From Bacteroidales bacterium (GTDB taxonomy: Bacteria > Bacteroidota > Bacteroidia > Bacteroidales > Prolixibacteraceae), in contig JAAYJR010000109.1 in the NCBI GenBank assembly GCA_012522835.1, forward strand, positions 1 through 49,585: a stretch of 49,585 nucleotides of DNA, written 5' to 3'. The position numbers and the translations under genes were made by a program. Below the pieces are notes generated by a model. The model was not told the origin of the DNA, did no database searches, and saw nothing but the letters and a program-made list of their open reading frames with translations. How positions within the stretch are numbered: position 1 is the stretch's first letter; every line of letters starts with the position of its first letter. This document shows positions 5,483 through 36,073 of this stretch, piece after piece.

Positions 5483-7663
5483 TTAATACCACGGAATATA
5501 TGATACTTTTTTAACTATCGTCCCGGTACCTGTTTTAAATCTTACAAAGTATACACCCGGCAAATTTCCCGATAAATCGATTCTCACTCTCCTTCCCTGC
5601 ATATTTGAAAACTTCGCCTGAACTGCCTGTCCGATAATATTGAAAACACTCAGGTCATTCACATCTATATCCCTGCCAGCTTCAAATGTAAAGATATTTC
5701 CGGTCGGATTCGGGTAGACCAGGGCATCTTCAGGATTGTTAACCAAAGGGGTATCATTAACCATCACATCCACATTACAGGCAACCAGCTCCATAACATT
5801 GGTCATTGAATAATTGCCTGTATTCTCCTCCTTGAAGTCATACCATAAGCCGTCTTCGCGAAAGCAGAAGAAATTTTCCTTCCCCGGCAACCTTACTGAT
5901 TGAAATAATACGAAAGTATCCAGGGGTTGAATGCCTGTCAGTTCAATACCCACAAAAAAAGTATCTGCGGGTTCAACAGTCTGGCTGAATTCAATAAAAT
6001 TCATTGCTCCCTGATGAAGAGTACTGATCTTTACTTTTTCTGAGTGAATGAGCACTTCCGGTAATACTCCTCCGTTATATATGTTAACAGAGATTTCGCT
6101 GCCAGACCTGCTGTCATTAAGCACGATTTTGCCAATCCCCAGTGAAACCCCGGATAGTTGTTCATTCCCTCTGACCGAGAAACGTTCGGCAATAGTTGTT
6201 ATACCTGCACTGTTAGTACCGCCCCAGTAACCTGCAAACTGGTCTGCATCAATTAAAGTTACATTCTCGTGATGATCCCCGTCATTCAGGTTTGTGAATG
6301 CCAGACACAGATCTTCGGCAACATTAAACCTCCTGCCGTCTATTTGTTTTACTCCCGAATTTAAAGGATCAAGCCAGTATTTTAACTGCCTGGAAGAATC
6401 ATTCCGGAAATCCCATGCCAGGTCAAACCGTGCAAAATAATCATTGTATGGATAACCGCAATAAGCATCACCACCGGTAAGGGTGCCAATCACATTCTGA
6501 GAAGGGTCTAACAGTGGCCCCCCGGAAGAACCATCTTCTGTAACCCCCATATCCCACTCAATTACTTTCAAAAACCCGTTTTTTATGTAAGGACTACTTC
6601 CAACATCATAGATAACAGGCCTGTCTCTGTCAAATGAAATTTTTTTCAGGTGCCCTTCAGGCTGGTGTATGCTGACTGTTGAATCGGGAATATTGCCTGA
6701 GCTGTTCCAGCCGGAAAAATACGGTCTGAACGTGGGAGGAGGAGGCAGGGTAAGCTCAACAAGTGCAAAATCGAGACTGTCACTGTAAGCACGCACATAA
6801 GCCCCGGAGATCGAATTGGAAGGATCACCCTCTAAAACAGCACAATAAGGACTTTCATAATTAAATGTAAAAACAGCTGCCTCTGAATCCTGTGGTTTCG
6901 TGAAACAGTGTGCTGCAGTAATTATATACGGCCTTTCATCTTCAGATGTGTTGTTAACCAGGGTACCGGTGCAGATATCGCTTCCTACAATAAATCTGCA
7001 GACTGCATCTTTCACATCATTCCAATCTTCAGCAATCTCACAGTTAACATCAACATGGCATTCACCCGGTAATTGTCCTGATGGCCGGTATTCATCATAT
7101 TTTAATATCCCTGTAAAATCGTGATTAACCTGGCTGATAACAAAGTTGTATCTTTCAGCCAATCCTGCAGGGACTTCATACTGGATAGTAATTTCATCAC
7201 CGGGAACAGGAGACACGGCAAATTTTCTGAACTTTTTATTATTGCCAGAAGTATAGGCACCCAGATAGTACTCCTCCTTTTCGTTAAAAAGAAACAGCCG
7301 TGTGCCGTCAGGAAGATGGAATTCTTCAAAAATAACATTGACAGATAAAGCGCCTTCAGACCGCAATTTCAGAATCCATACATCATATCCCTTTACATCT
7401 GAAACCCATAAACCTTCGGTTTCGGGTGAAATATTAACATCAAAACTATGCGCAAAACGAAAAGGTTTCAGAAATGGCTCTGCTTTTCTCTCTTCCTCTG
7501 CCAACCTTATCAGATCTGAATTGATTACACGCGGCATCTCCTTTACCGGAACGCCCCTGCTCTTCAGTACGGGTACCTGTAAAGGCATACCTCCCCGGGA
7601 GATCTGTCCTTTAACAATAAAAACAGAAAATGTAAAAATGGTTGCTAAAAAAAACCAACGCAT
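5483..7663 (-). CDS. T9SS-secreted trypsin-like serine endopeptidase
   Basis: A 726-residue exported protease. Order: signal peptide (1-19), a ~200-residue propeptide/N-terminal region, a chymotrypsin-fold domain resembling lysyl endopeptidases, a beta-rich domain, and a C-terminal type A sorting tail. The catalytic triad is visible: His252 in ITAAHCF, Asp298 in SLDFALVEL, Ser380 in DGSSGGPL. The tail (from ~645) contains YPNPTGN and later GVYFVRFKTG...KKVSY, the hallmark of Por/T9SS secretion to the cell surface or medium. A TAACTTTG -7 box lies 17 bases before the start. The gene is first in an operon with a FecB/C/D importer (4-base gap). Residue preference is not established. Confidence 0.9.
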   Translation of the reverse strand: MRWFFLATIFTFSVFIVKGQISRGGMPLQVPVLKSRGVPVKEMPRVINSDLIRLAEEERKAEPFLKPFRFAHSFDVNISPETEGLWVSDVKGYDVWILKLRSEGALSVNVIFEEFHLPDGTRLFLFNEKEEYYLGAYTSGNNKKFRKFAVSPVPGDEITIQYEVPAGLAERYNFVISQVNHDFTGILKYDEYRPSGQLPGECHVDVNCEIAEDWNDVKDAVCRFIVGSDICTGTLVNNTSEDERPYIITAAHCFTKPQDSEAAVFTFNYESPYCAVLEGDPSNSISGAYVRAYSDSLDFALVELTLPPPPTFRPYFSGWNSSGNIPDSTVSIHQPEGHLKKISFDRDRPVIYDVGSSPYIKNGFLKVIEWDMGVTEDGSSGGPLLDPSQNVIGTLTGGDAYCGYPYNDYFARFDLAWDFRNDSSRQLKYWLDPLNSGVKQIDGRRFNVAEDLCLAFTNLNDGDHHENVTLIDADQFAGYWGGTNSAGITTIAERFSVRGNEQLSGVSLGIGKIVLNDSRSGSEISVNIYNGGVLPEVLIHSEKVKISTLHQGAMNFIEFSQTVEPADTFFVGIELTGIQPLDTFVLFQSVRLPGKENFFCFREDGLWYDFKEENTGNYSMTNVMELVACNVDVMVNDTPLVNNPEDALVYPNPTGNIFTFEAGRDIDVNDLSVFNIIGQAVQAKFSNMQGRRVRIDLSGNLPGVYFVRFKTGTGTIVKKVSYIPWY

Positions 7664-7679
7664 AATTATACTTTTTTGC

Positions 7680-7687
7680 CAAAGTTA
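7680..7687 (-). promoter_or_regulatory. -7 element of the protease-importer operon
   Basis: Reading the minus strand, TAACTTTG matches the Bacteroidota -7 consensus TAnnTTTG. It predicts a transcript start near 7674 and a leader of about 11 bases. A TTTG on the same strand (plus-strand CAAA at 7703-7706) sits 15 bases upstream, shorter than the preferred 19-21, so the -33 element is doubtful. Confidence 0.5.
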
Positions 7688-7781
7688 ATATTTAATGTTA
7701 ATCAAACAGTTTAAATTTAAAATCTGAATTTTAATATTTTTTTGATTATTTTGTTGGAAATAACGATAACACTGAGGTATT

Positions 7782-8195
7782 ATGAAGGTATTGGTAATGT
7801 ATGTTGATGAATTTAGTTATTCGCCTGCCGTGAAAAATCTTGAGACAGCAGATGAAGTGACCTCGGGTGAAAAATTCACTGACTCTATCCTGGCATTTAT
7901 CCAGGTAGAAAAGAGTGATGAAGAGTTTGACATAAAAAGCAGGGAGAAAAAATTAGTAAACCACTTAAAATGGACTGCCCGTAAAAATGACTGTCAAAAG
8001 ATCATCCTGCACTCTTTTGCCCATCTTTCTGAATCCAAGGCTTCTGCAGAGTACACAAAAGAACTCTTCACCCTTGCTGAAGCAAGGCTTCAAAATGGCG
8101 GGTTCACAACTGCCCAGACACCTTTTGGTTATTTTCTTGACCTTAGTCTGAAGGCTCCAGGCCATTCACTTGCAAGGATTTGGGCATCCCTGTAA
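7782..8195 (+). CDS. Free-standing archaeal-type ThrRS editing-domain protein
   Basis: A 137-residue protein that aligns over its full length with the N-terminal editing domain of archaeal threonyl-tRNA synthetases (tRNA-Thr_ED, D-Tyr-tRNA deacylase fold), which hydrolyses mischarged Ser-tRNA(Thr). Conserved blocks are MKVLVMYVDEF at the N-terminus, HSFAHLS (77-83), TPFGYF (113-118) and GHSLAR (127-132). No synthetase domain follows, so any editing would act in trans. Against the Pyrococcus abyssi domain, His83 is kept (His81 here), but Lys121 is replaced by Leu119 and Glu134 by Arg132. Nearby genes do not suggest a pathway. Fold assignment is strong; activity and substrate are open. Confidence 0.82.
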   Translation: MKVLVMYVDEFSYSPAVKNLETADEVTSGEKFTDSILAFIQVEKSDEEFDIKSREKKLVNHLKWTARKNDCQKIILHSFAHLSESKASAEYTKELFTLAEARLQNGGFTTAQTPFGYFLDLSLKAPGHSLARIWASL

Positions 8196-8784: not shown

Positions 8785-11700
8785 TTACCATTCCCCTACT
8801 TTCTCTGCTTCATTAAGATTAAGATACCAAATATATCCTTCCACAACATCAAAGCCACATTTTTTAAGAGTGCCGGCATATCGTTTTATCTGCCTGTGAT
8901 ACCTTTCAGTCATTTTATCCCCCCATTTATAATCCACAATCAATGCTTTTCTTCCCTTAATCATAATTCGGTCAGGCCTTAATATCTTATCTTTTGTAAG
9001 TAAATTTCGTTCATTTAATATCTGATATTTACCGTTGAACCATTCACCAACCAAAGGATTCTTCAATCCTTCCTCAAATTTCTTAATAATGCCGGCCTGT
9101 TCACTTTCACTTATCTTACCTTCTGCAAACGCCTTATTGCAGGATTTACGGAAATCGTCAGCCACTTCAACATTTTCCAGGATTTCATGAACCAGCTTAC
9201 CAGCATTTTTTACCGGTTTATTCTTTTCCCCGTTAATAAGAAAATCCTCACTTTTCAATCGCAGGCGGATCCTGTCGCGATAATCATAAAAATGATAACT
9301 GCCGGGCCAGTCAGGCTCTATAATCTCCTTTTGGCCCTCCACCGGCGGAAGATGTCCGAAACGAAATTCAGTTTTATCATCATTCCAACTGTCAGCAAAC
9401 TTACTGTCCAGTGCCATTCTGTCCAGTGAATTAACCAAAAGGGAGTTAAAGGCAACCGGAGGCTTAGGCATTTCATTACGGTCACTTTTTTCAAACGGAT
9501 CTTTACAATTAACGAATAGTACAGACCTGGCACGGGTGAAAGCCACATATACAAGGTTAAAACTATCAATATAGCTATTTACTTTTTCCTCAATATAGTC
9601 ATCCCTGAAAACTGTTTTCAAAAGCTTTTTACCGGCTTTTACAGGCACCAGGGGAAAACGGTTGAACGGGTCAATATCTGCCCGGCACCATAATATCGGT
9701 GCTCTATTGGAAGGCCAGGAAGTTTCCCAGTTAAAAAAGGGAAGTATAACGGCCTCAAATTCAAGTCCTTTAGCTTTATGCACAGTGAGCAACCTGACAG
9801 CATCCACGTCCTGGTTGACACTGACAGAAACCTTATATCCTTCTTCATTCCACCATAACAACAGGTTTGTCAGGTCATTTGAAAATGTTGCTTTCTCTTC
9901 AGCAGCTTTATCCAAAAGTGTTTGCAAAAATGGTATTTCTGATTTTATAGAAAAAAGTCCGAAGAGGTTACATATCTCAGATACTGTTTCTTCAGGGGAT
10001 AACAGCAACAACTTCTCCTTAAGTTCTTTCAATATCGGACCAAGTTCAGCTTCAAAAACTGTATCAGTATCATTAACAATCCTGCTCTCACCTGGATTGT
10101 TTTGAGTACGGCTCGCATCTGCCGGAAAAATTCCGGATTGATTCAGGCGTGGTTTCAACCATGACAACCAAAAATGCAAAAGAGCAGTTTTACTGATCAT
10201 GTTTTCCGGTTCTGTAAGGAGGCTGACAGTTAGCATAACCATATTAACTCCCTTAGAAACAGAGAGAAACAGCGATTCACCAGAGATAACCGACAAATTA
10301 TATCTCTCATTACCGGGTAGATTAGAGGCGGCTAGAAATTTTTCTATAATCCTGGGGCCCTCTTTATTCTTCCTTATAAGTATAGCTGTGTCAGAAGCCT
10401 TAATGCCCTTATCCTGCAAATATTTAACCTGTTCAAGTAAAAGATCAACCGAATTATTATCAAAATCTTCTGAAGGTAACAACTTTATCCCGGCAAGGCC
10501 GGTGGTCCCAGCCTGGCTGTTACCCGGCTGTTGCAGAAAATGTTCATATATCTGTGCAAATCGTTTTATATATTTTTCATCTTCTATCTCAGTGAGTATA
10601 AATTCCTCAAACAGGCACTTAATGTGGCCGGTTACCTCATTGTTAAATCTTATAATATTTTTACTGCTGCGCCAGTTTTTCTCCAGGGGAATCTCAAAAG
10701 GAGGATAATGGGGAAAATCGGTATTTATTTTAAATGCCAGTATATTCCAGTCACTGTTACGCCAACGGTAAATTGACTGTTTAACATCACCTGCAACCAA
10801 TGCAGAGTATCCTTCCGACAAGGCATTCGCTATCAGTGGTTTGAAGTTATTCCATTGGAGTGCAGATGTATCCTGGAATTCATCGATAATATAATATTTA
10901 AACCAGTTACCTGTTTTTTCATAAATAAACGGAGTATCGGTTTCGCCAATAATTTTACTCAACAGCAGATTAGAATCTGAAATTTGCAATATCCCCTTTT
11001 CATGCAGCAGGTTTTTGATCTCTTCCCTGAGGTCAGTTAAAATTCCGAGAACCCTGATCCTACTCAGTACCTCTTTAGCAGCAAGATATTTTGGTTCATT
11101 ATCATTGCGAAATCTTATTATTTCTATCAGCAGGGGCCTTAACTGCGTTTCAACTATACTGAATATCTTCTCTTTTTGTTTGCTACTTTTGGCATACCAC
11201 TTTTCAGAATCCTCTGCACATGATGTAACTGTATTTGTTATCTCAGGCAGATCTCCTGAGGCCAGCCTGGAAAATACATTTCCTATTCCCCTGCTTTTAC
11301 CGGAAAAATCATCAATTGTCAATCCACCTGCAAAAATAATCTCAACACCCTTTTCCCCTCTGTCCTTAAGTGCATTGTCAAAATAAGATATATATCTTTT
11401 AAGTTCTTTACGCACGGTTTCAAGGTTATCCCGCGTATACTCCGAATCTTTATCATGAGGAAAAAAAACCTGAAATTTTTCTTTGAAAAGCTCGTTGCCA
11501 AGAGCTCTTATGTCATCTTCTATCTTATGGCTGAAATTATCCATAATTTTTTCTTTACTGAATTCAACCAGCCATTTACGAAGATTCCGGTCAGTATCAA
11601 TACCTGACAGCATTCTGTCTGTTGCCTCATTCAGTATCATTTCATCTTCCATCCCCAGGGTAAATTGGGGAGATATCCCTGTTTCACGGTTAAAAGCCCT

Positions 11701-12039
11701 GATTATACGTTGTGTAAATGAATCAATGGTATTAACTGCAAACCTGCCGTAGTCATGAAGAATATTTTTCAAGGCTTTCGATGCTCTCAGTCTGATTTTA
11801 TCCTCATCAAAGATCAAAGACTCTTTCAGCATTTCCAGATAGTCAGAATCCTTATTGCCAGAAAGCAAAAAAAGTTGACGAAGGATCCGTATTTTCATTT
11901 CATTGGCTGCTTTATTGGTAAAGGTTACAGCCAAAATGTGCCTGTAGTTGTAAGGATTAGAAATAATCAGCTTCAGATATTCATAAACAAGATGAAATGT
12001 TTTACCCGACCCTGCTGAGGCTTTATAAACAGTTAACAT
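8785..12039 (-). CDS. AddA/RecB-like UvrD-type helicase-nuclease
   Basis: A 1084-residue superfamily 1A helicase with a C-terminal nuclease, of the type that resects double-strand breaks for RecA loading. Motif I is ASAGSGKT (7-14); VNTIDSFTQRI is motif Ia/Ib; IIDEFQDTSA (~386) is Walker B; VAGDVKQSIYRWR is motif III; VNLVYVAFTRAR is motif VI. The C-terminus carries a PD-(D/E)XK nuclease: RPD (Asp1023), VDYK (Asp1036, Lys1038) and QIKRYAG. The usual partner (an AddB-like nuclease/helicase) is not adjacent: the upstream gene is a small exported protein, and downstream is DUF4293. It may act with a partner encoded elsewhere. Confidence in the class is high; in AddA versus RecB naming, moderate. 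Confidence 0.9.
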   Translation of the reverse strand: MLTVYKASAGSGKTFHLVYEYLKLIISNPYNYRHILAVTFTNKAANEMKIRILRQLFLLSGNKDSDYLEMLKESLIFDEDKIRLRASKALKNILHDYGRFAVNTIDSFTQRIIRAFNRETGISPQFTLGMEDEMILNEATDRMLSGIDTDRNLRKWLVEFSKEKIMDNFSHKIEDDIRALGNELFKEKFQVFFPHDKDSEYTRDNLETVRKELKRYISYFDNALKDRGEKGVEIIFAGGLTIDDFSGKSRGIGNVFSRLASGDLPEITNTVTSCAEDSEKWYAKSSKQKEKIFSIVETQLRPLLIEIIRFRNDNEPKYLAAKEVLSRIRVLGILTDLREEIKNLLHEKGILQISDSNLLLSKIIGETDTPFIYEKTGNWFKYYIIDEFQDTSALQWNNFKPLIANALSEGYSALVAGDVKQSIYRWRNSDWNILAFKINTDFPHYPPFEIPLEKNWRSSKNIIRFNNEVTGHIKCLFEEFILTEIEDEKYIKRFAQIYEHFLQQPGNSQAGTTGLAGIKLLPSEDFDNNSVDLLLEQVKYLQDKGIKASDTAILIRKNKEGPRIIEKFLAASNLPGNERYNLSVISGESLFLSVSKGVNMVMLTVSLLTEPENMISKTALLHFWLSWLKPRLNQSGIFPADASRTQNNPGESRIVNDTDTVFEAELGPILKELKEKLLLLSPEETVSEICNLFGLFSIKSEIPFLQTLLDKAAEEKATFSNDLTNLLLWWNEEGYKVSVSVNQDVDAVRLLTVHKAKGLEFEAVILPFFNWETSWPSNRAPILWCRADIDPFNRFPLVPVKAGKKLLKTVFRDDYIEEKVNSYIDSFNLVYVAFTRARSVLFVNCKDPFEKSDRNEMPKPPVAFNSLLVNSLDRMALDSKFADSWNDDKTEFRFGHLPPVEGQKEIIEPDWPGSYHFYDYRDRIRLRLKSEDFLINGEKNKPVKNAGKLVHEILENVEVADDFRKSCNKAFAEGKISESEQAGIIKKFEEGLKNPLVGEWFNGKYQILNERNLLTKDKILRPDRIMIKGRKALIVDYKWGDKMTERYHRQIKRYAGTLKKCGFDVVEGYIWYLNLNEAEKVGEW

Positions 12040-35091: not shown

Positions 35092-35559
35092 TCAGAGGCT
35101 TACAGGAATGGTTCTCTTAATTGACTCCTCCAGGGATATAAAAGTTTCTGTACTGGCAATACCATTGATCTTTTGTATTCTCCCACTCAAAATACTTTTC
35201 AGGTGCTCATTATTTTTTGCGTATACTTTTATAAAAATGGCATATTGCCCTGTTGTATAATGACATTCAACAATCTCCGGAATAAGTTCCAATTTTTCAA
35301 CCACCTCTGAGTAGAGGCTACCCTTTTCCAGAAAAATACCCATATAGCTGCATGTCCCGTATTCTACCTTTTTAGGATCGATATTATAGCCCGAGCCGGT
35401 AATGACCTCTTCGTCAATCATCCTGTTAACCCGCTGATGAACAGCGGCTCTGGATACTCCTACCTTATTCGCAACATCTTTAAAAGGTATCCGTGCATTT
35501 TGGGTGATAATATCCAAAATCTTCAAGTCAATATCGTCTAAATGATTCCTTACAGTCAT
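35092..35559 (-). CDS. Lrp/AsnC-family transcriptional regulator (downstream copy)
   Basis: 155 residues: a winged helix-turn-helix (LDIITQNARIPFKDVANKVGVSRAAVHQRVNRMID, ~15-48) and a RAM/AsnC ligand domain (~75-150) with VECHYTTGQYAIFIKV. Proteins of this family bind amino acids and regulate metabolic genes as dimers or octamers. It is a paralogue of the gene starting 31 bases upstream on the same strand, with several identical blocks, and both are probably read from one promoter. The effector is unknown. Confidence 0.9.
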   Translation of the reverse strand: MTVRNHLDDIDLKILDIITQNARIPFKDVANKVGVSRAAVHQRVNRMIDEEVITGSGYNIDPKKVEYGTCSYMGIFLEKGSLYSEVVEKLELIPEIVECHYTTGQYAIFIKVYAKNNEHLKSILSGRIQKINGIASTETFISLEESIKRTIPVSL

Positions 35560-35590: not shown

Positions 35591-36073
35591 TTATTTTATT
35601 GGCACCTGTCTTTTAAAATCCATCTCGAGGGACATGAATGTCTCTGTCCGCAAAACTCCGTCAATTTGTTGTAGTTCATTGTCAATTAAATCCTTAAGAT
35701 GCTTATTTGTTTTAGTCTGAATTTTTATAAATATGGCATATTGCCCTGTTGTATAATGGCATTCAACTATTTCGGGAATTTTGCGCAGGGCCTTTACCAC
35801 CTGAATATGATATTTTGCTTTTTCGAGGTATATCCCCATGTATGCACAGGTATTATATCCTATCTTCTCAGGATCCACAATAAATTCACTGCCTGAAACT
35901 ACCCCTATATTTAATAAACGCTGTACCCTTTGATGTATTGCAGCACCTGAAACCCCACACTCTCTTGCTACTTCAAGAAAAGGAATCCGGGCATTTTTTG
36001 TGATCAGTTTCAGGATTTTTTCATCCAATTCATCTATATCAGGAGGGCGTTCAATATATTCAGATCTCTCCAT
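35591..36073 (-). CDS. Lrp/AsnC-family transcriptional regulator (upstream copy)
   Basis: 160 residues with the same plan as its neighbour: helix-turn-helix (LITKNARIPFLEVARECGVSGAAIHQRVQRLL) followed by the AsnC ligand domain with VECHYTTGQYAIFIKI. The tandem arrangement and shared blocks (CAYMGIYLEKA against CSYMGIFLEKG) point to a local duplication followed by divergence. A TACATTTG box on the minus strand precedes it with a leader of about 28 bases. Mixed oligomers of the two products are possible (inference). Confidence 0.9.
   Translation of the reverse strand: MERSEYIERPPDIDELDEKILKLITKNARIPFLEVARECGVSGAAIHQRVQRLLNIGVVSGSEFIVDPEKIGYNTCAYMGIYLEKAKYHIQVVKALRKIPEIVECHYTTGQYAIFIKIQTKTNKHLKDLIDNELQQIDGVLRTETFMSLEMDFKRQVPIK

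Follow-up and report, generated by a model that had tools for sequence, protein, structure and literature searches.

The archaeal ThrRS editing domain is well known as an enzyme described as working through its backbone and through RNA instead of through side chains. A catalytic role in this domain falls to the 2'-OH of A76 of the tRNA, and the pocket takes its shape from the backbone at residues 117-120 (Ahmad et al. 2015, PMC4491819). In Pyrococcus abyssi, the side chains within 6 Å of the scissile bond are those of Pro80, Phe81, Ala82, His83, Tyr120, Lys121 and, from the other subunit, Glu134 (PMC4491819). Double mutants Y120A/E134A of the P. abyssi and A. pernix domains keep their rate within about 1.7-fold and discriminate fully between Ser and Thr, whereas E135A inactivates the M. 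jannaschii domain, and a Lys-to-Met change at the Lys121 position displaces the catalytic water and leaves each of the three archaeal enzymes tested severely compromised in editing Ser-tRNA(Thr) (PMC4491819). U73 has been suggested as the determinant used by the archaeal editing domain (PMC11295145). In addition, tRNA-Thr-ED genes lie near SepCysS in methanogens, and SepRS-ED fusions occur in a few bacteria (PMC5424206, PMC8762117).

A free-standing editing domain and its distribution in Bacteroidota

The window, i.e. the whole stretch of 49,585 nucleotides that was analysed, harbors a complete, single-domain open reading frame of 137 aa with an ATG start at 7782-8195 (+ strand). The gene and its upstream region are as follows.

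7664-7781, no strand: intergenic region of 118 bp between the divergent protease gene and the PF08915 gene (ORF list, gene order across related loci)
7782-8195, + strand: stand-alone PF08915 protein (tRNA-Thr_ED, DTD-like fold), 137 aa (Pfam, PDB alignment, AlphaFold2, Foldseek)

An earlier note had read the product as a stand-alone archaeal-type ThrRS editing domain in a bacterium, and this identification held. The PF08915 match spans residues 1-135 on model positions 1-135 (E 8.6e-34; 117 bits, for a curated cut-off of 30.2 bits), the PDB entries matched best, 4rrq and 1y2q, are editing domains of archaeal ThrRS (E about 1e-11 to 1e-12), and neither a ThrRS nor an anticodon-binding domain is attached to the 137-aa frame. 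Besides PF08915, the Pfam scan of the protein gave only a sub-threshold match to DUF1798, and PF02580 (DTD) was unmatched. The AlphaFold2 model, built as a monomer, has a mean pLDDT of 90.8 and a pTM of 0.86. In the structural comparison that the note had proposed, the best Foldseek match of the predicted fold was the P. abyssi ThrRS editing domain (TM 0.88), with a TM of 0.77-0.86 to the M. jannaschii and A. pernix editing domains and about 0.6-0.7 to DTD and ATD. A conserved extension was sought in 166 homologous frames and none was found. The protein is thus an archaeal ThrRS editing domain that is free-standing in environmental Bacteroidota. A search of one literature library returned no paper on the stand-alone family of Bacteroidota, which does not prove that none exists.

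The stand-alone gene is common in Prolixibacteraceae, the family including Prolixibacter and Mariniphaga (38 of 60 genomes), and patchy elsewhere: it was found in 4 of 40 genomes sampled from other families of the same order, in 53 of 295 genomes in a wider draw of the order, and also in one family of another class, while only 2 of 297 genomes drawn from the whole phylum were above the cut-off. A scan of the GTDB species set gave 463 encoding loci, of which the best 80 were read. One weak match below the cut-off (L032) was missed by the subfamily profile and was treated as chance. Archaeal contamination of the assembly was rejected given the bacterial neighbours and the same gene order in isolates, for example Mariniphaga anaerophila. 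A mobile or phage origin was likewise set aside, as plasmids, phages and viral contigs gave no match to the stand-alone gene. The P. abyssi domain, used as query against plasmids, returned nothing.

The gene appears to be transcribed alone; the divergent trypsin-like protease gene lies at 5483-7663 (- strand). A secreted protease of this type adjoins the stand-alone gene in most Prolixibacteraceae loci, the other neighbours depending on the lineage; across the related loci, no gene for translation or amino-acid activation is kept throughout, and the neighbours give no consistent functional hint. Elsewhere in the window, the gene at 8785-12039 (- strand) codes for a helicase of the UvrD family whose C-terminal part gives a Cas4/DUF83-like match and which is probably a recombination protein of the AddA type, and two adjacent similar genes at 35092-35559 and 35591-36073 (both - strand) resemble, by eye, AsnC/Lrp-type regulators in tandem. 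Mariniphaga sediminis has two copies of the stand-alone gene on two contigs, L011 (G007:C4:81074-81478) and L045 (G007:C12:71279-71683), which correspond to the named records L056 and L057. Their proteins are identical and their flanking genes in the same order, as might result from a segmental duplication of recent date or from a repeat in the assembly.

The predicted pocket and its conservation

His81, Leu119 and Arg132 align with P. abyssi His83, Lys121 and Glu134 in the PDB-match alignment, and MAFFT agrees, as the earlier note had stated. Two further pocket differences from P. abyssi are present, Tyr120 to Phe118 and Pro80 to Ser78. The positions concerned are listed below (all from the alignment).

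8013-8024, + strand: motif Ser78-Phe79-Ala80-His81, corresponding to P. abyssi Pro80-Phe81-Ala82-His83; His kept, Pro replaced by Ser
8127-8138, + strand: motif Gly116-Tyr117-Phe118-Leu119, corresponding to P. abyssi Gly118-Tyr119-Tyr120-Lys121; Tyr120 replaced by Phe, Lys121 by Leu
8175-8177, + strand: codon of Arg132; P. abyssi Glu134, at this position, reaches the active site of the partner subunit

The seven side chains published as lying within 6 Å of the scissile bond thus correspond here to Ser78, Phe79, Ala80, His81, Phe118, Leu119 and Arg132, of which four are altered with respect to P. abyssi, including the equivalents of Tyr120 and Glu134, which line the amino-acid pocket, and of the water-placing Lys121. 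Of the residues that mark the archaeal Ser-editing domain, the His83 equivalent is present and those of Tyr120, Lys121 and Glu134 are absent.

Conservation was assessed in 136 distinct homologous sequences from Bacteroidota, all unfused. Ser78, Phe79, His81, Gly116, Phe118 and Arg132 are each found in 136/136, Phe115 in 135/136, Leu119 in 133/136 (Met in the other three) and Ala80 in 130 (Asn in 6). The Leu and Arg that the note had singled out are therefore common to the bacterial stand-alone copies, and all four changed pocket positions (Ser78, Phe118, Leu/Met119 and Arg132) are fixed in the clade. As read from these alignments, the change is larger than the note had stated, with four fixed positions of which it had missed two, and the altered predicted active site is a fixed trait of the subfamily. 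L137, L141 and L148 combine Met119, the residue that DTD, too, has at that position, with QTAFGYF instead of QTPFGYF. Differences by codon position from orthologues, at 0.13/0.09/0.63 for that of Mariniphaga anaerophila, show that the stand-alone gene is under purifying selection. Together with the residues that are invariant or fixed in the 136 homologues, this rules out decay of the pocket.

These residues bear on two readings of the protein. It could be a plain trans-editor of Ser-tRNA(Thr), like crenarchaeal ThrRS-ed, in which the side-chain changes would make no difference, the backbone and the tRNA providing both specificity and catalysis. The behaviour of the Y120A/E134A mutants of two archaeal domains agrees with this reading; drift would be expected at neutral positions, whereas none of the 136 sequences departs from Phe118 or Arg132, and the effects of Lys-to-Met in three archaeal enzymes and of E135A in M. 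jannaschii also speak against it, so that overall we find it possible but rather unlikely. At the other extreme, the protein may not be an aminoacyl-tRNA deacylase at all, but may bind adenosine ligands or the 3' ends of tRNAs, or deacylate small molecules. The loss of the Lys required for water placement in archaea would fit, but His81 and the motif segments around the ester position are invariant, and we regard this reading as improbable. The suggestion in the note that substrate or catalysis has changed is plausible in view of the severe effect of Lys121-to-Met, and not forced, Tyr120 and Glu134 being removable in two archaea.

Other proofreading in the host and the proposed function

The host ThrRS is a complete bacterial enzyme which, as the earlier note had supposed, has an unrelated editing domain: the N2 editing domain is present with intact HxxxH and CxxxH motifs, and its HSSAH and CRGPH align with E. 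coli His73, His77, Cys182 and His186 (numbering from PMC4041444). Relatives show no difference in their N2 motifs whether or not they carry the stand-alone gene, and all 30 ThrRS genes read retain HxxxH and CxxxH, including two that escaped the search pattern and were read as HSSAHI. Compensation for a broken ThrRS N2 site was rejected on these grounds. A standard DTD is present in 96 of 100 relatives, the host genome included, so the protein is not a stand-in for a missing DTD either. The stand-alone gene replaces no lost host function.

The ordinary DTD also weighs on the D-aminoacyl-tRNA option that the note had listed. A role as a D-aminoacyl-tRNA deacylase would be consistent with the DTD-like fold and with Met standing in DTD where the protein has Leu119 (Met in three homologues). 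However, no Gly-cisPro was seen: the window protein has Gly127-His128 at this position, and in the 130 sequences itemised the residue following the conserved Gly127 is Phe, Tyr, His, Asn, Ser, Ala or Val, mostly one of the first four. The option is weakened to the point of being very improbable.

The four tRNA-Thr genes recovered from the host genome (GGT twice, CGT and TGT) all have T73, whereas the single tRNA-Ser recovered has G73. Since U73 is the suggested archaeal determinant, the host tRNA-Thr is compatible with recognition by the domain, but not uniquely, because tRNA-Gly and tRNA-Cys likewise have T73 and U73 does not single out tRNA-Thr. The U73 of tRNA-Thr is in keeping with a plain Ser-tRNA(Thr) editor, as is the oxidant sensitivity of N2 editing relying on Cys182 in E. 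coli (PMC4041444), given which a cysteine-free backup could be useful.

Conversely, with the N2 domain of the host ThrRS intact, there is no obvious need for another deacylase of Ser-tRNA(Thr), and together with the fixed changes this leaves substantial room for another client. The protein might be a deacylase whose substrate is new: a tRNA carrying a different mischarged amino acid or a non-protein one, or an aminoacyl-tRNA that is N-blocked. Arg132' would then touch an acidic or blocked group at the place where Glu134' bound the free amino group. The aminoacyl-contacting side chains of P. abyssi, His83 excepted, are replaced and the replacements are fixed, and the host already owns an N2-competent ThrRS and a DTD; but no neighbour indicates a particular substrate and the neighbours vary between lineages, so this reading, too, is a somewhat doubtful one.

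We consider it fairly likely that the protein deacylates aminoacyl-tRNA in trans by means of a re-arranged pocket, with Ser-tRNA(Thr) as the leading candidate substrate. The segments forming the archaeal A76 and ester site are kept (F79, H81 and G116 in 136/136, F115 in 135/136). A homodimer would bind the 3'-aminoacylated A76 against the conserved backbone of the FGY(F) and SFAH segments, and the ester would be hydrolysed by the A76 2'-OH and a bound water. The positive charge placing this water may have moved from the archaeal Lys121 to the facing cross-subunit Arg132', and Glu134, the holder of the substrate amino group, would have been dropped. The likeliest clients would be small mischarged L-amino acids on U73 tRNAs, Ser-tRNA(Thr) foremost; the N2 domain of ThrRS would be the first line and the deacylase the second, perhaps as a backup when the N2 cysteine is oxidised. 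By analogy with the three archaeal domains, in which Lys-to-Met at the Leu119 position nearly kills editing, a Ser-tRNA(Thr) role may be questioned, and the fixed change from Lys to Leu119 needs explaining. A stronger proposal, which we hold only tentatively, is that of a bacterial trans-editing factor not described before. In it, an Arg reaching across from the other subunit would have taken over from the cis Lys as the cation for the catalytic water, the anchor for the amino group would have been lost, and the substrate would be unlike that of the archaeal ancestor.

The protein belongs to a known fold and kind of enzyme, and is probably a real tRNA-proofreading enzyme with an altered pocket. 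In this natural clade, every polar side chain in contact with the aminoacyl part, save one, was replaced and then frozen, which provides an evolutionary test of the claim that side chains are dispensable. If the Bacteroidota protein still edits Ser-tRNA(Thr), the side chains are truly spare; if it acts on another substrate, a large group of bacteria from the environment possesses a quality-control enzyme that is new.

Comparison with known systems

With the N-terminal editing domain of archaeal ThrRS (P. abyssi, M. jannaschii; 1y2q, 2hl1, 4rrf), the window protein shares whole-length homology, the fold, His83 and the FGY backbone. It differs in being unfused and bacterial, and in having Ser, Phe, Leu and Arg in place of Pro80, Tyr120, Lys121 and Glu134. 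The relation to DTD and ATD is a distant one of fold, with a hydrophobic residue at the Lys121 position (Met in DTD); no Gly-cisPro or Gly-transPro was seen, His81 stands where DTD has Leu, and the TM is only about 0.6-0.7.

The SepCysS-linked and SepRS-ED genes also carry a PF08915-type domain outside ThrRS, those of the SepRS-ED type in bacteria. However, the genes of both types are tied to the Sep-tRNA(Cys) pathway, and the SepRS fusions are reported to keep the serine-recognition motif completely (PMC5424206, PMC8762117); the neighbourhoods read here showed no linkage to that pathway. Finally, crenarchaeal ThrRS-ed (A. pernix ThrRS-2; 4rr6) is the same domain, likewise separate from the aminoacylating enzyme. 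ThrRS-ed keeps an anticodon-binding domain and the Tyr, Lys and Glu residues, whereas the window protein is a bare domain in a host whose ThrRS bears an editing site of its own.
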